A stretch of 6,094 bases of DNA from a bacterium (GTDB lineage: Bacteria; Actinomycetota; Acidimicrobiia; UBA5794; ZC4RG35). This document shows positions 1 through 6,094 of the stretch, piece by piece (position 1 is the stretch's first letter; the number at the start of each line of letters is the position of its first letter). Location: NCBI GenBank assembly GCA_028819835.1, contig JAPPKR010000187.1:1-6094 (forward strand). The letters run 5' to 3'. The position numbers and the translations under genes are program-made. Under the pieces are notes generated by a model. It was not told the origin of the DNA. It saw only the letters and a program-made list of their open reading frames with translations, and did not search any database.

Positions 1-590
1 CCGCCGCGGCGACCGACCTGGTCCAGGCCACGATGGCGATGATCGCCGGCCAGTATATGGACATGTCCTTCAACCGTCAGGACGCCGTCGGGGTGACCGA
101 GTGCTGGGAGATGGTGGCCCGCAAGACAGGCGCTCTGCTGGCGCACGCAAGTGCGGTGGGCGCGATCCTGGCGGACGCGCCGCCCCAGACCGTCGAGGCG
201 CTGCGCCGTTTCGGCCATGAACTGGGGCTCTGCTTCCAGGCCATCGACGACCTGCTGGGCATCTGGGGTGAACCCGCCGTCACCGGGAAGCCCGCCGGGA
301 ACGATTTGAGGGAGCGCAAGAAGTCCATCCCGGTCACGGTGGCCCTCAATTCGGGGACCAGGGCCGGCGAGATGTTGGCCGATCTCTACGCCCGGGAGCA
401 CTTGAACGAGGACGACATAGCCAGTGCTACCGCCCTAGTGGAGGAAGCGGGTGGGCGCGCCGCCACCGTCGAAGCTGCTCGGGACTGCATGGAACGCGCC
501 GCCCAAGCCCTCGCCGCCGCAGACCTCGAGGTGCAGGCTGCCGAGGAATTGCAGGATCTGGCAAGCTTCGTCGTAAACCGTGAGTTCTGA
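1..590 (+). CDS. Polyprenyl diphosphate synthase family protein, C-terminal part (5' end outside window)
   Basis: The reading frame is open from base 3 to the TGA at 588-590, with no stop at the left edge, so the gene starts before the window; the ATG at 33 is internal. About 195 C-terminal residues are visible. They fit the all-helical trans-isoprenyl diphosphate synthase fold, which condenses isopentenyl diphosphate with allylic diphosphates to make C15-C20 or longer prenyl chains in the cytoplasm. Visible signatures are GQYMDM, the second Asp-rich region in FQAIDDLLGIWGE, and the following TGKPAGNDLRERKKSIP basic stretch, which corresponds to the family's GxDL..KK..P element. The second motif reads DDLLG rather than DDxxD; from memory this is usual in actinobacterial homologues linked to hopanoid or carotenoid genes. 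The first Asp-rich motif lies outside the window, so chain length and pathway cannot be assigned. It converges on the toxin gene, 23 bases away. Confidence 0.9.
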   Translation, partial: AAATDLVQATMAMIAGQYMDMSFNRQDAVGVTECWEMVARKTGALLAHASAVGAILADAPPQTVEALRRFGHELGLCFQAIDDLLGIWGEPAVTGKPAGNDLRERKKSIPVTVALNSGTRAGEMLADLYAREHLNEDDIASATALVEEAGGRAATVEAARDCMERAAQALAAADLEVQAAEELQDLASFVVNREF

Positions 591-613
591 GGGTCCCTGT
601 CTATTGAGCGGGG

Positions 614-994
614 TCATATGACAACCACTCTCACTGAGTATTCCCCCAAGCGGCCATCGGCCGTCAGCAACTCGAGGCCTTCGAGTTGGGCCTGGGCTAT
701 CAGCATCCGATCAAAGGGATCCCTGTGATGCAGCGGCAACTCTCCAACCCGGGTCGCATGCTCAATGGTTATCGCCAGGGGAGCGAACCCGCATGTCAGG
801 ATTGCTTTTTCCACCCCGTCGGGCACCGAGAGCTTTCCGATCGAACTCTTGATGGCCATCTCCCACACGCTCGCCGCGCTGACGGCTACGTAGTTTGCGG
901 GATTGGCGATTAGTCGGCGTGCCTCCTCACCGAGCCTTTGATCGTCAGACAACCACCACAACACCACATGAGTGTCCAGCAGTAACCGCCTCAC
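614..994 (-). CDS. vapC: VapC-family PIN-domain toxin of a type II toxin-antitoxin pair
   Basis: A complete 126-residue PIN-domain protein, normal length for VapC-type toxins. These are Mg2+-dependent ribonucleases that cut tRNA, rRNA or mRNA when released from their antitoxin. The PIN acidic residues are in place: D7 in LLLDTHVVLWWL, E45 in SVWEMAIK, D95 (with D92) in HHRDPFDRMLIAQA, and D113 in LLTADGRL. The DTHVVLWWL start and the HRDPFDR block match the COG3744-like branch of PIN toxins. It starts with GTG at 994-992, which overlaps the antitoxin stop as GTGA. Upstream there is only an AGGA two bases from the start, so translation probably depends on coupling to the antitoxin gene. The partner immediately upstream on the same strand makes the toxin-antitoxin call firm. 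The RNA target cannot be inferred from sequence. Confidence 0.92.
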   Translation of the reverse strand: MRRLLLDTHVVLWWLSDDQRLGEEARRLIANPANYVAVSAASVWEMAIKSSIGKLSVPDGVEKAILTCGFAPLAITIEHATRVGELPLHHRDPFDRMLIAQAQLEGLELLTADGRLGEYSVRVVVI

Positions 995-1233
995 GTTCCT
1001 GACACATCGTCGGCGCCTTCAAACGCATCGCATACTTCGGCAGGAGTCTCATCGAAGTCAGAAGCCATCCACACTTTGCCCCTCCACAGACCCGGAACCC
1101 GGGAAGCCGGTTGGTATGGAGTTAGGCGCAGGTAAGGCTTTCCGTGGCGACAGATCACAACCTCCTCTCCCTCCCAGACCAACCGACCCAACTTGGACAA
1201 TTGCGACTTGGCTTCATGCATGTTCACATTCAC
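991..1233 (-). CDS. Phd/YefM-type antitoxin
   Basis: An 80-residue protein. Its first 40 residues have the Phd/YefM DNA-binding pattern: NMHEAKSQLSKL, then EGEEVVICRHGKPYLRL. The C-terminal half (PGLWRGKVWMASDFDETP, then an acidic AFEGADD tail) is the usual toxin-neutralising extension. Antitoxins of this family dimerise, bind a palindromic operator in their own promoter, and wrap the toxin active site. The start is GTG at 1233-1231. It is preferred over the internal ATG at codon 5 because an AAGGAG sits six bases upstream of it (1240-1245 on the complement). Its TGA stop overlaps the toxin GTG, giving the classic antitoxin-first coupled operon. Autoregulation is expected from the family; a palindrome lies about 25 bases upstream of the start. 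Confidence 0.9.
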   Translation of the reverse strand: MNVNMHEAKSQLSKLGRLVWEGEEVVICRHGKPYLRLTPYQPASRVPGLWRGKVWMASDFDETPAEVCDAFEGADDVSGT

Positions 1234-1239
1234 AGTCCG

Positions 1240-1245
1240 CTCCTT
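1240..1245 (-). promoter_or_regulatory. Ribosome binding site of the antitoxin gene
   Basis: The complement reads AAGGAG, six bases before the GTG at 1233. This decides the GTG start over the in-frame ATG four codons later. Confidence 0.8.
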
Positions 1246-1248
1246 AGT

Positions 1249-1277
1249 TTGCTTTATTAGCTAAATCTAAATATAAG
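1249..1277 (+). promoter_or_regulatory. Candidate sigma-70-type promoter for chrA
   Basis: TTGCTT (1249-1254) and TATAAG (1272-1277) are separated by 17 bases. They match the -35 consensus at three of six positions (the TTG) and the -10 consensus at five of six. Transcription would begin near 1284 and leave a leader of about 40 bases before chrA. The segment is sharply AT-rich compared with its surroundings and lies between divergent genes, as expected for a promoter. The antitoxin operon promoter must also lie in this segment on the other strand, but no convincing pair of boxes was found for it. Confidence 0.45.
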
Positions 1278-1284
1278 ACTAATA
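1255..1284. promoter_or_regulatory. Candidate toxin-antitoxin operator (palindrome plus inverted repeat)
   Basis: A perfect 8-base palindrome TTAGCTAA occupies 1257-1264. Around it, TATTAG (1255-1260) is repeated in inverted orientation as CTAATA (1279-1284), with 18 bases between. Phd/YefM antitoxins repress their own promoters by binding short AT-rich palindromes just upstream, so this is the natural candidate. It falls within the spacer of the candidate chrA promoter, so binding here could affect both directions. That last point is inference. Confidence 0.4.
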
Positions 1285-1324
1285 GCATCCGCTTCTAGAT
1301 GAGGCCCCTATTCGGCGTGTTATT

Positions 1325-2551
1325 TTGAGCCGGGTGAACAACGCAGTCGACGTACCCCCGTCCCGGAAAGGGAGGTTCTGGGAAGTCTTTTGGGTTGCGC
1401 TCCGGTTGGGCCTTACCTCATTCGGAGGACCGGTTGCACATTTCGGCTACTTCCATGAGGAGTACGTCGAGAGACGGAGGTGGGTGGACGAGGGAACGTT
1501 CGCAGACCTCCTAGCCCTTTCCCAGGCGTTCCCCGGCGCGGCCAGTTCCCAACTGGGTTTTGCGATCGGAATGGTGAGGGGAGGGCTGCGGGGAGGATTG
1601 GCGGCATGGTTGGGTTTCACCCTTCCCTCGGCCGTCATTCTCACCACCTTGGGATTGGGCGCCTCCCGAATCGGCCAACAGGCACAGGGATGGGTGCACG
1701 GTCTGGTGGTGGTGGCCGTGCCGGTGGTGGCCCTGGCAGTGTGGAAGTTGTGGTCCAACCTGGCGCCGGACCCGTTCCGCAGTTCGATGGCGGTTGCGGC
1801 TGCGGTCGCCCTGATCGCTTTCCAGACTCCCGCCAGGACGACCACGGTGTTGGTGATCGTCCTGGGAGGCCTATTGGGATGGAGGTTCTGCCGGGATCGC
1901 CCAGCCGACTCCGACCAACGCCGCCTACCGGCTCTCAGTCGGAAGGCGGGAGTGATCGCCGCCGTCGTTTTCTTCGGTCTTCTAACCGCTCTTCCCATTG
2001 CCAGCCGGGTTACCGAACTCGAGTTCGTGGAGGTGACCGATGCCTACTACGGAGCGGGAGCGCTGGTCTTCGGCGGCGGACCGGTGGTTCTGCCTTTGCT
2101 GGAACCGGAGGTGGTCGGCACCGGCTGGGTGGACCCCGAACTCTTCATCGCCGGGTACGGCGCCGCCCAGGCTATACCCGGGCCGGTGTTCACATTCTCC
2201 TCGTACCTGGGAGCGGTCATGACTCCGGAGCCCAACGGGATACCCGGGGCGGCGCTGGCCTTGGTGGCGCTGTTCCTGCCGTCCCTGCTGATGGTGATGG
2301 CCACCTTGCCCTTCTTCTCGGTCCTGCGCGCCCACGCCGGGGTCCAGGCGGCGCTGAGGGGAGTCAACGCGGCGGTGATCGGGATCCTCCTGGTGGTCCT
2401 CTACGACCCTTTGTGGACCAACGCCATCCGCGAGCCTTCGGATCTGGCGCTGGCCCTGGCCGGATTCGGCCTTCTGGCGTTCTGGAAGGTGCCGCCCTGG
2501 CTAGTCGTCCTCCTAACCGCCGTCGCCGGAGGAGTGCTGGCGGTCATCTAA
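1325..2551 (+). CDS. chrA: Chromate transporter, ChrA family, two CHR domains
   Basis: A 408-residue hydrophobic membrane protein of the CHR superfamily, which exports chromate from the cytoplasm using the proton gradient in characterised members. The length fits the long-chain, two-domain form. The first CHR domain opens with LRLGLTSFGGPVAHFGYFHEEYV and contains the LSQAFPGAASSQLG signature. The second begins around residue 235 with YYGAGALVFGGGPVVLPLLE and repeats the pattern as GYGAAQAIPGPVFTFSSYLGA. Many Gly/Val/Leu-rich membrane segments lie between and after them. A basic, polar linker around residues 188-208 separates the halves. The start is uncertain: TTG at 1325 or GTG at 1334, with no clear Shine-Dalgarno before either. 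The 3' end overlaps the convergent dprA-like gene by four bases. CHR proteins are often annotated this way without tested chromate specificity, so the substrate is inferred from family. Confidence 0.92.
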   Translation: MSRVNNAVDVPPSRKGRFWEVFWVALRLGLTSFGGPVAHFGYFHEEYVERRRWVDEGTFADLLALSQAFPGAASSQLGFAIGMVRGGLRGGLAAWLGFTLPSAVILTTLGLGASRIGQQAQGWVHGLVVVAVPVVALAVWKLWSNLAPDPFRSSMAVAAAVALIAFQTPARTTTVLVIVLGGLLGWRFCRDRPADSDQRRLPALSRKAGVIAAVVFFGLLTALPIASRVTELEFVEVTDAYYGAGALVFGGGPVVLPLLEPEVVGTGWVDPELFIAGYGAAQAIPGPVFTFSSYLGAVMTPEPNGIPGAALALVALFLPSLLMVMATLPFFSVLRAHAGVQAALRGVNAAVIGILLVVLYDPLWTNAIREPSDLALALAGFGLLAFWKVPPWLVVLLTAVAGGVLAVI

Positions 2552-3537
2552 GACTTTCCTGACAGGGCTGACTTCTCGAAGAGGGAAGCCTGTTCCGGGC
2601 GAGAAGGGCTACTACCAGAGTGTTCCTCGATATCCTGCCCTCCCACTTCCCACACTGCTTCGAGTTCATCGATGGATCGAATGGGTTGGGCTCCCCTTTC
2701 CTCAAGTAGGTTGTTTCCCGGACCTTCTCCTGGTCCTCTCCATACTCCGACTCGCCCAAACCCCTTTTCCAGAGCCTCGGTTGCGCCCGACCAGGTACCT
2801 CCCCTGTCGGTTCCACTGGCTACCACTACAGTGATCTCGGACAGAGCGTAGATGAGCTTGTTGCGACCCATGGCGGTCCAGACTTTGAAAGGTGTTTCGG
2901 GGCTATAGGGAGTGCACATAACCACTCGATCCTCATAAATCGCTCTGCGCACATCAGGCTTCCTGAGGTTTCGCACGAGGGAATCAGCCAGAACGCCGAT
3001 CACACTTCCGCCAGCGTGGAACGCGGCGTTCATAGCCAACTGATCAACCCCGCGCGCGCCCCCGGAGACGAGGGAGAAACCCATGTCAGCTACCTTGGAG
3101 GCAACGTCTTGGGCCACTTCCGCTCCCTCGGTAGAGACATCGCGGCTACCTACCACTCCAATTCCAGGCCGATCAATCAGTTCGACAGCTCCGGCAGCGT
3201 GCACCGTGGCTGGCGCCTTGGACCGAAGTCGGTCTACCAAGTGGCTGGGATAGTGGGTGTCGAAGGGTGTCAATGTCCGGATACCCGAATGTTCAAGTCG
3301 CTCCAATTCGAAAGCCATGGCTCTGATCCGATCCAGCAAGACAACCATCCTGGACGCCAGCCCTCTGTACAAACCGTGTTCATGCACGAGTTGGTCCTCG
3401 GTCTGGCCCAACAGAGCGCTGGGTCGTGGACAGGTTTCCCGAAGCTTCCAGTACTCGGGTGCCGATAGAGGCTGCATCCCCTTACTTCCGATCCTGCTGA
3501 CTAGCAGGATCGTTACCAGGGAATCCTCATTTCTCAT
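2548..3537 (-). CDS. DprA/Smf-like DNA-processing protein
   Basis: A 329-residue protein with a DprA/Smf Rossmann-like core over about residues 85-295. Visible family blocks are GIGVVGSRDVS (125-135), SGGARGVDQLA (158-168, equivalent to SGxARGID in DprA), the TAMGRNKLIYALSE block (221-234, equivalent to the RNRII segment), and SGTDRGGTWSGATEAL (241-256). Canonical DprA binds single-stranded DNA and loads RecA during transformation; the same fold belongs to the SLOG superfamily found in several conflict systems. The C-terminus is short and polar, with no obvious winged-helix domain, unlike many true DprA proteins. This makes it a divergent paralogue, so no gene symbol is given. ATG at 3537 overlaps the helicase stop as ATGA and has an excellent AAGGAGG five bases upstream. 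Translation may therefore not depend on the interrupted helicase gene. The stop is TAG. Confidence 0.85.
   Translation of the reverse strand: MRNEDSLVTILLVSRIGSKGMQPLSAPEYWKLRETCPRPSALLGQTEDQLVHEHGLYRGLASRMVVLLDRIRAMAFELERLEHSGIRTLTPFDTHYPSHLVDRLRSKAPATVHAAGAVELIDRPGIGVVGSRDVSTEGAEVAQDVASKVADMGFSLVSGGARGVDQLAMNAAFHAGGSVIGVLADSLVRNLRKPDVRRAIYEDRVVMCTPYSPETPFKVWTAMGRNKLIYALSEITVVVASGTDRGGTWSGATEALEKGFGRVGVWRGPGEGPGNNLLEERGAQPIRSIDELEAVWEVGGQDIEEHSGSSPSRPEQASLFEKSALSGKS
3489..3512 (-). repeat. Perfect 10-bp hairpin early in the dprA-like coding region
   Basis: CGATCCTGCT (3489-3498) and AGCAGGATCG (3503-3512) are exact reverse complements separated by a four-base loop. In the mRNA the stem begins 25 bases after the A of the start codon and covers codons 9-17. 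No U-run follows, so it is not a terminator. A stem this close to a start codon can influence initiation or mRNA stability, but it may also be a chance result of the coding sequence. Confidence 0.6.
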
Positions 3538-3542
3538 GAGAG

Positions 3543-3549
3543 CCTCCTT
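3543..3549 (-). promoter_or_regulatory. Strong ribosome binding site of the dprA-like gene
   Basis: The complement reads AAGGAGG, five bases before the ATG at 3537 and inside the 3' end of the helicase gene. It is a near-ideal Shine-Dalgarno. It fixes the start and allows translation independent of the upstream, interrupted gene. Confidence 0.85.
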
Positions 3550-5441
3550 CCAGCCGTGTCGGCCAGGGCGAAGGGGTAGACCAAGCCGACCCCGGCACTA
3601 CGAAGCCTGCCACCGACAACTGTAAGGGTCCATTTGGAGTCGACTATGTCGTCTACCAGCAAGACTGGTCCGGGTGGAACGGGCGGCTGGATCTCAAAGG
3701 CATCTCTCACATTGCAGTATTGCTGATAGCTGTTTTTCATTGTCTTCTGTGGCTTTGTTTCACTGACTTGTCTAACCACATTCTTGTAGGGCAGACCGAG
3801 CGATGTCGCTAGTCGAGCGGCGAAACTCCGTACAAGTTCGGGATTCCTCAACGAAGGAACTGAGACAACCCAGGTTGGTGCCGGCTTAGGAACCCACCGG
3901 TTACTGATTAGATCTGCCGAAGCCGCCACCAACTGTTCGTCAAAGCGGCCCTCCTCCTGCTTGCCCGACCGGACGAGGGCTCCCCAGCCACTATCCCCCC
4001 ACACTGACAGAACTCGACCTGGTTCGATGCTTTGGTCTGCCGGGATCCTCTTGCGGTCCGGCCATTGTTTGCGAGGTCCGATAGTCAACTTGACTCGGTG
4101 AAGATGTTCGACAGCCCCTTGGACGGTTGCCGGATCGAAACGAGTTGCAAGACTTTGACCTGTGCAGTTGTCGCAGATGCCACATTGCTTTGGAGCCACA
4201 TCGTCAAGATAGATTCCCAAGAGCTTCATACGGCAGCCGTCGGTGCGCACGTACTCGAGCATCTGCTCCTGCTCGATCCTACGTTGAGCTGTTACCGACT
4301 CGACACGTTGTCGATCAAACTTCCATGGTCCCAGAGTTCGCCGCCACCTGTTTCCCTCACGCTCGATTGCCCCTTCGACCTCCAAATTCCTCAGCAGGTT
4401 CTTAAGTCGGTCCCCTTGGACATTCACCATTTGCTGTAAAACATCCCAGGACACTGGTTCTGCCCGTCGTTCTAGCAGCGACACTACTCGTTCCGCCAAG
4501 TCAGCCGGAGGGAACGCTCCGCGGATGAAATAGTCCTGTATGTCGGCGTCTTCTCCGCCTCTGAGCAAGACCCCCAAAGACTTGCTAAGCGCTCGTCCAG
4601 CTCGACCCACCTGCTGGTAATACGTAATCGGGGAACCCGGAGACTGGTAATGGATCACGAAGGAGAGGTCGGGTTTGTCGAATCCCATACCGAGAGCCGT
4701 AGTTGCGACCACCACCTTTATTCCGTTGGACAGCAGTGCCTGCTCGATCTCAATCCGGTCGTCGGAATCCAAACCACCCCAATAGGGAACCGCTTGGATT
4801 CCAACTGCGGTCAGCCATTCCGCTACTCGCTGCGCATCTCTGACGGGGAGACAATAGATCACACCTGTTCCCTCTAGCTTCGGAACCAGGTCGGCAAGCC
4901 ACGCGAGGCGCTCGGCTTGAGAAGGGATCTCCAAAACATGCAGCCGCAGTCCGGTGCGTGCCAAGGGTCCCCGGATAATGCTTAGTTCTGAACCGAGTTG
5001 ATTGGTGACATCTTCAATTACGCGGTTATTGGCCGTGGCAGTGCAGCACAGGAGCGGCACGCCAGGGAGGAAACCCAGAATGCGTGAGATCCTCCGGTAG
5101 TCAGGCCGGAAGTCGTGCCCCCAATCCGAGATGCAATGCGCCTCGTCGATAACCAACAAACCGCTACGGCCGAGAATTATCGGCAAAAACTCACTCCGGA
5201 ACCTTTGGTTGGCCAGCCTTTCAGGCGAGATCAGCAGGATGTCAACCATATCCTCTTCGAGCTTCTTCTCGACATCGTCCCACTCGGCGCGGTTTGCGCT
5301 GTTGATGGTGAGGGCGCGCACTCCCATCCGCTCCGCGGCCTCAATCTGATTTCGCATGAGCGCAAGAAGCGGGGAGACCAGCAAGGTTGGGCCGTCATCC
5401 CGATCTCGCAACATTCGGGTTGCGATGAAGTACACGGCGCT

Positions 5442-5444
5442 CTA
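5442..5444 (-). other. In-frame TAG at the Walker A lysine position
   Basis: On the complement the codons run ACC GGG TGG GGA TAG AGC GCC GTG TAC, read T-G-W-G-stop-S-A-V-Y. The RecQ Walker A motif requires GKS at this point, so TAG stands exactly in place of AAG (one A-to-T change). The frames on both sides are identical and otherwise intact, so this is a nonsense change, not a frameshift. Confidence 0.95.
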
Positions 5445-5651
5445 TCCCCACCCGGTTCGCTGAACTAGAAGCACCCGCTGGCGCAGGGCAACAAGCCTGT
5501 GGATGGCGTCAAGCTGGTCAGGACGGAAATCTGTAGTCGCATCCCCAGTTAGTGCTCGGAGCAGCCCAAGTGCCTCCAACGCAAACTCGTTATTCATCAA
5601 AGGGTCCTTATCCGCCCACCTGACCTCTGCCCCGCATACGGGACATATCAA
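5442..5651 (-). CDS. N-terminal fragment of the interrupted RecQ-like helicase
   Basis: This 69-residue piece precedes the amber codon. It holds a single CxxC knuckle (ICPVCGAEVRW, residues 2-12), a helical linker, the RecQ Q-motif FRPDQLDAI (42-50) and the beta-strand leading into Walker A (RVLLVQRTGWG, 59-69). The stop falls where the Walker A lysine is expected. The TTG at 5651 is the first usable start in the frame, but it has no Shine-Dalgarno nearby. The frame stays open upstream for 21 more codons to TAA at 5715, including TVTFFEGG. A GAGGGAGGG purine run (about 5675-5683) sits there with no canonical in-frame start after it. The true N-terminus is therefore unsettled. Alone, this peptide would have no helicase activity. 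Confidence 0.7.
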   Translation of the reverse strand: MICPVCGAEVRWADKDPLMNNEFALEALGLLRALTGDATTDFRPDQLDAIHRLVALRQRVLLVQRTGWG

Positions 5652-5750
5652 AACGTATCTGAGGGGTGTGACATTCCCTCCCTCGAAGAACGTAACGGTG
5701 GTCCGTGATTGAAGTTAACCGTGTTCCGACCAGCCGAAGCGTCAGGCCTG
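5652..5750. other. 99-bp gap between the cysM-like gene and the helicase gene
   Basis: No gene of its own is seen. It contains the upstream extension of the helicase frame (to 5718), the purine-rich GAGGGAGGG, and one arm of an inverted repeat. That repeat pairs TCCGACCAG (5725-5733) with CTGGTCGGA (5763-5771), the second arm lying inside the cysM-like 3' end. The 29-base loop and the lack of a T-run make it a weak candidate for a terminator. No clear promoter for the helicase operon was found. Confidence 0.5.
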
Positions 5751-6094
5751 CTACCAGAGAATCTGGTCGGAGGCTCTATCCACAGCCTGGTCGAGGGGTC
5801 CGGTGTAGATGCCGGTGGAGAGGTATTTCCACCCGGCGTCGGGGAAGATGGTCACCACCGTCCCCGAGCGCATCTCCCTCGCCACCCGCAACGCAACCGC
5901 CAACGCGGCCCCGCAGGAAGGCCCGGCGAACAACCCCTCCGCGGTGAGGAGCAGGCGAGTGTGTTCGATGGTGGACCGGAGGCGTACCAGGACCCGCCGG
6001 TCGATGCGATCCGCGTCGAAAATGGGAGGGATGTAGCCGGCCTCCATGGAGCGGAGGCCCGTGATGAGTTCTCCCACCGGAGGCTCGGCGGCCA
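5751..6094 (-). CDS. cysM: Cysteine synthase, CysM-like, C-terminal part (5' end outside window)
   Basis: The frame stays open to the right edge (AAEPPVGELITGLRSMEAGYIPP) and ends with TAG at 5751-5753, so about 114 C-terminal residues are present. It is a fold-type II PLP enzyme of the cysteine synthase/cystathionine beta-synthase family, which makes L-cysteine by beta-replacement on an activated serine. The SCGAAL segment in LFAGPSCGAALAVA matches the element whose serine binds the PLP pyridine nitrogen. The ending FPDAGWKYLSTGIYTG-LDQA...LW strongly resembles mycobacterial CysM, which uses O-phosphoserine and the sulfur-carrier protein CysO. The PLP lysine is outside the window, and the CysO partner is not visible, so the donor specificity is inferred. 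It lies upstream of, and in the same direction as, the helicase operon, with a 99-base gap. Confidence 0.88.
   Translation of the reverse strand, partial: AAEPPVGELITGLRSMEAGYIPPIFDADRIDRRVLVRLRSTIEHTRLLLTAEGLFAGPSCGAALAVALRVAREMRSGTVVTIFPDAGWKYLSTGIYTGPLDQAVDRASDQILW

Follow-up and report, generated by a model that had tools for sequence, protein, structure and literature searches.

The window (the whole stretch of DNA analyzed here, 6,094 bases long) harbors a broken member of the PsyrTA/RqlHI family, from which the standard genetic code yields no intact toxin. Read directly on the minus strand, positions 5444-5442 spell an in-frame TAG in the context TGWG-stop-SAVY. It is the sole internal stop between ATG 5597 and TGA 3534, the remaining frame (687 codons) being open, and a full-length toxin frame with an intact Walker A motif is absent from the locus, TAG occupying codon 52. 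The features on which the analysis turns are the following.

3534..5597, minus strand: psyrT/rqlH gene, interrupted; 687 codons plus TGA (PADLOC PsyrT match; relatives of 687 amino acids)
5442..5444, minus strand: in-frame TAG, codon 52, at the position of the Walker A lysine (frame reading and homologue alignment)
5445..5597, minus strand: upstream piece of 51 codons, ending in TGWG (PsyrT profile positions 7-49)
3534..5435, minus strand: downstream open frame of 633 codons from GTG 5435 (helicase domains, RecQ zinc site, and a phosphoribosyltransferase [PRTase]-like tail with VLLVDDIVDS)
2548..3537, minus strand: psyrA (rqlI-like) antitoxin gene, intact (PADLOC PsyrA PDLC03927, E = 8.7e-83; PF02481, E = 6.5e-36)
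5751..6092, minus strand: end of cysM, which runs off the contig and ends in TAG (TIGR01138, E = 1.7e-21, profile position 290/290 reached)

The initial annotation had reported an amber codon on the Walker A lysine of an otherwise intact gene, and frame reading bears out both points. Its figure of about 705 codons was counted from an upstream TTG; the frame is open as described, but the 687 codons from ATG 5597 equal the size of the closest relatives (P0003-P0011, among the best 120 of 7999 proteins). Likewise, its label of a RecQ-like helicase holds for the helicase core but is too generic. With the PADLOC PsyrT profile PDLC03928, E is 1.1e-247 for the downstream piece and 1.9e-9 for the upstream one, searched as the longer stretch 5445-5651, the two psyrT pieces together covering positions 7-49 and 53-686 of its 689. 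Pfam DEAD, Helicase_C, and RecQ zinc-binding domains are found in the downstream piece, and the match of the psyrT tail to PF00156 is sub-threshold (E = 0.0024; 17.6 bits versus a cut-off of 26.3). The neighboring gene, correctly called dprA-like, had gone unrecognized as the antitoxin gene psyrA of the pair. It overlaps the psyrT stop, has its own AAGGAGG five bases 5' of ATG 3537, and ends in TAG. A housekeeping RecQ would share the helicase core and the zinc site with the window gene, but the tail differs and TIGR01389 reaches 260.7 bits (downstream piece only) against a cut-off of 640.2; this score and the PsyrT match rule out that identity. The PsyrT and PsyrA profile matches and the overlapping gene order thus point to a PsyrTA/RqlHI toxin-antitoxin pair rather than to a housekeeping RecQ, and by these matches the interrupted gene is psyrT/rqlH, encoding a predicted toxin of the helicase-phosphoribosyltransferase type. 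We take psyrT to be equivalent to rqlH, and psyrA to rqlI, on the profile matches together with general background on these systems.

As in PsyrTA/RqlHI, a RecQ-type helicase with a C-terminal PRTase-like domain is followed directly by a DprA-like antitoxin; unlike in that family, the toxin gene of the window has a stop at codon 52. ShosTA combines a PRTase toxin with a DprA-like antitoxin. Its partner gene resembles that of the window, where psyrA matches ShosA at 2.5e-28, but this is a far weaker match than the one to PsyrA, and a helicase part is present in the window toxin gene. DprA homologues are named as the antitoxins of shosTA, syrTA, and rqlHI in PMC9122126. The motif VLLVDDIVDS of the psyrT tail includes DIVD, the stretch mutated in E. 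coli RqlH according to passages of PMC4670107. In PMC12409345, growth was impaired in the strain that expressed PsyrTA, and no phage protection by PsyrTA was detectable in that setting.

The whole window, bases 1 to 6094, aligns collinearly with a sister genome (G202) at 85.8% DNA identity; psyrT is intact in G202 and 83% identical over 633/633 residues. Given its closeness to G202, which was drawn from the same class as the genome of locus L069, the window probably belongs to an uncultured bacterium of the class Acidimicrobiia. Between the two copies, psyrT has a dN/dS of 0.169 over 687 codons with 0 gap codons; values for the other six window genes, two of them partial (polyprenyl synthase and cysM), range from 0.053 to 0.217, with a single gap codon, in psyrA. 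The DNA alignment shows six one-base gaps at 3766-3845, but these compensate each other in pairs within 6-9 bases, and the codon alignment has none of them. At 261 columns, at least 97% of 119 homologues agree; the window PsyrT departs from them at 4 of these, the stop included, and the sister at 3; as many or more departures occur in 14 of the 119 homologues, so the window protein is not unusual. A Tajima-type rate test was even with P0005, P0006, and P0007 (38/33, 41/35, and 37/32) and skewed with P0004 (65 window-only versus 26 sister-only), which is probably no outgroup. Judged from these alignments, psyrT was under normal constraint until recently. Wider decay, for which the initial annotation had proposed a check against close relatives, is ruled out: psyrT has no second disruption and no codon gap relative to its intact sister. 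If psyrT had been neutral since the stop arose, 0.038 substitutions per site would suffice to bring the chance of no second stop down to 5%; with dS at 0.566 and equal rates assumed, this distance is about 13% of half the dS. Normal constraint and the lack of a second stop thus suggest that the psyrT stop is recent, or else an artefact or error.

Lysine conservation at the interrupted position is complete in the relatives covered. Among the 120 best-scoring homologues out of 7999 proteins, the Walker A column holds lysine in 119/119 others, the 120th being the window's own downstream piece. At the DNA level, 100 psyrT loci were fetched, 80 from one search and 20 from a class survey. In this homologue comparison, of the kind that the initial annotation had advised, all 99 that aligned at the Walker A point have a lysine codon and none has TAG; the remaining locus (L023) also has the lysine, in another frame, the frame break coming after it. 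Internal in-frame stops occur in 2 of the 100 fetched loci, L007 (residue 106) and L020 (residue 401), and frame breaks in 2, L023 and L069; the stop flagged at residues 682-683 in 4 loci is the natural end. The class survey (395 genomes) revealed a real internal stop in none of ~85 PsyrT-level rows (a hand count of rows of at least 584 bits, some cut by contig ends), its sole flagged stop being the natural end. A phylum survey (396 genomes) gave 74 genomes with a match and 10 rows flagged for stops; upon realignment, six had the stop at residues 682-683, and four had none up to the end of the stretch realigned, at residues 679-683. Pooled over these three overlapping surveys, internal psyrT stops amount to roughly 2 in 230 rows (~1%), some of which may themselves be errors, and psyrT genes broken in any manner are somewhat commoner. 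None of the stops flagged in the three surveys falls at Walker A, and a stop hotspot there is ruled out for the family, with 0 other cases in 119 proteins, 99 aligned loci, and 11 re-examined loci.

Partner genes varied across the same loci. A psyrA-like match (E up to 1e-8) was found in only 34 of the 100 psyrT loci, and 33 of the 34 matches lie at most 400 bases from psyrT; of all 100 loci, 6 have <1 kb downstream. L007 and L069 have too little downstream DNA to show psyrA; L020 has 6 kb, without a psyrA-like match. Toxin genes of the psyrT type without a recognizable antitoxin are common, as is likewise reported in passages of PMC4670107. The phylum survey also shows psyrT as two overlapping rows, of the frame break type, in one locus (G564:C89). 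In the 66-amino-acid P0243, the PsyrT N-terminus through Walker A is joined directly to the PsyrT C-terminal end, which makes it an internal deletion or an assembly chimera.

The initial annotation considered a random nonsense hit on this very codon a 1-in-hundreds coincidence. With 201 other psyrT codons one step from stop, the exact codon indeed has a chance of ~1 in 200, but this figure is post hoc: 19 of the 202 one-step codons (~9%, ~1 in 11) lie in recognized catalytic or metal-binding motifs, whose names and borders are our own assignment. In E. coli F11, toxicity of the first gene is neutralized by the second, and a lower-SOS screen in E. coli without rqlI recovered six independent transposon insertions in rqlH (passages of PMC4670107). 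The same passages report that deletion of the PRTase domain of RqlH or mutation of its binding loop abolished most toxicity; the Walker A mutant K49A grew to normal density, yet with lower viable counts that RqlI did not rescue, although RqlI did lessen the K49A SOS response and filamentation. If valid here, a lysine mutant that is still harmful implies that lysine loss as such gains nothing, whereas an early stop does. The proposed selection against a costly helicase activity agrees poorly with a toxicity that needs the PRTase and with an unrescued lysine mutant. That the stop falls on the Walker A lysine is most likely a coincidence.

We regard a recent nonsense loss of the toxin at a PsyrTA locus as the probable explanation. 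A recent nonsense change would halt psyrT translation at codon 52; ribosomes would release a 51-residue peptide, and the helicase-PRTase toxin would not be made. The antitoxin gene psyrA, with its intact frame, would remain translatable via its own Shine-Dalgarno-like AAGGAGG, and toxin loss would be tolerated at once, provided that the antitoxin alone is harmless. The Walker A location would be due to chance, any early stop having the same effect. We infer that the allele is real, that its product is absent, and that loss of the toxin is tolerated or favored. Counted against nonsense loss are the greater rarity of internal psyrT stops in the wider surveys and the low chance of hitting exactly the lysine codon.

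The main rival, which we hold to be possible though distinctly less likely, is a base-calling or consensus error in this 6094-base metagenome contig, the organism itself having an intact psyrT; the initial annotation had not chosen between error and mutation. The 633-amino-acid protein is listed on one contig, with a longest length of 6094 bases, and the window is probably the whole contig. An error would also suit a gene that is otherwise constrained and intact, a lysine present at the site in every relative examined, and the rarity of internal psyrT stops in the surveys. Against it, the other six window frames are open and align with the sister genome without a gap codon save the one in psyrA, and no full-length cluster >83% identical appears among the matches listed, though a 98% identical psyrA (P0122) exists on other contigs. 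Clusters of 2 and 3 member sequences are represented by the 51-amino-acid and the 633-amino-acid piece, respectively; the allele may therefore exist in additional copies, although these members may be fragments. If 1e-5 to 1e-4 consensus errors per base are assumed, the 236 routes to a stop in psyrT mean that roughly 0.08 to 0.8% of contigs would show an erroneous stop in the gene. Since internal stops occur in ~1% of rows, this rough comparison favors a nonsense allele over a consensus error.

There is only a slim chance that this species maintains the amber allele at an appreciable frequency, either as a toxin off-state or as a re-started, ATPase-dead, PRTase-bearing regulator beside an intact antitoxin. 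Equally doubtful is the proposal that termination at TAG is followed by re-initiation at GTG 5435, the product being an ATPase-dead protein with a separate function and with the PRTase tail retained. This GTG is in frame, six bases past the stop, and has a G-rich GGTGGGGA stretch just upstream; that stretch, however, encodes the TGWG motif and is thus no evidence of a start. In passages of PMC4670107, helicase-dead mutants of E. coli RqlH are still harmful, with a loss of viable counts unrescued by RqlI, so a re-started product would be expected to be costly. Moreover, the lysine is missing in 0/119 relatives (from the best 120 of 7999 listed).

Read-through of TAG by an amber suppressor tRNA or as pyrrolysine, giving a conditional enzyme, has as its sole support the otherwise open and constrained psyrT frame and is very unlikely, since TAG is an ordinary stop that ends psyrA and cysM both in the window and in the sister genome, in keeping with the argument of the initial annotation against a general reassignment. 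A CUA anticodon is absent from 35 tRNAs of the sister genome (ARAGORN on loci), a set that is incomplete, as tRNA-Tyr and tRNA-His were also not seen; the PylS profile gave nothing over its cut-off of 178.15 bits in 34 genomes of the sister's family, 26 of which had weak matches of at most 31.1 bits. These tRNA and PylS data come from relatives; in the window itself, neither a tRNA nor an Rfam match was found, and the RNA after TAG is not unusually structured (z = -1.08), which makes a recoding structure just as unlikely.

Under recent nonsense loss, the stop on a catalytic lysine, striking as it looks, finds its explanation in a toxin-antitoxin pair that can tolerate losing the toxin. Should the allele be real, the locus represents a natural antitoxin-without-toxin state in which a separate function of PsyrA could be sought. 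Taken by itself, the finding is ordinary: an interrupted locus from a toxin-antitoxin family already known. A narrow literature search, which says little, returned no account of nonsense loss of a toxin beside an intact antitoxin.

The surroundings of the pair offer several minor observations. Third-position GC is 0.60-0.615 in psyrT and psyrA versus 0.79-0.85 in the polyprenyl synthase, chromate transporter, and cysM genes; the low values may reflect acquisition before the split from the sister genome, which shares the gene order. As to a mobile context, no near match to the window occurs in the plasmid collection, and of the 13 loci that a scan of viral contigs yielded, one matches in part, at 60%, while identity is 30-40% for the rest. 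A second toxin-antitoxin-like pair lies at 614-1233 on the minus strand, consisting of a PIN-domain gene (PF01850, E = 4.9e-20) and a Phd/YefM-like partner (below the Pfam cut-off), both with open frames and collinear in the sister genome. For the polyprenyl synthase piece at 3-590 on the plus strand, the best match is NF041169, a cargo type of family 2 encapsulins (218 bits for a partial gene, cut-off 450).
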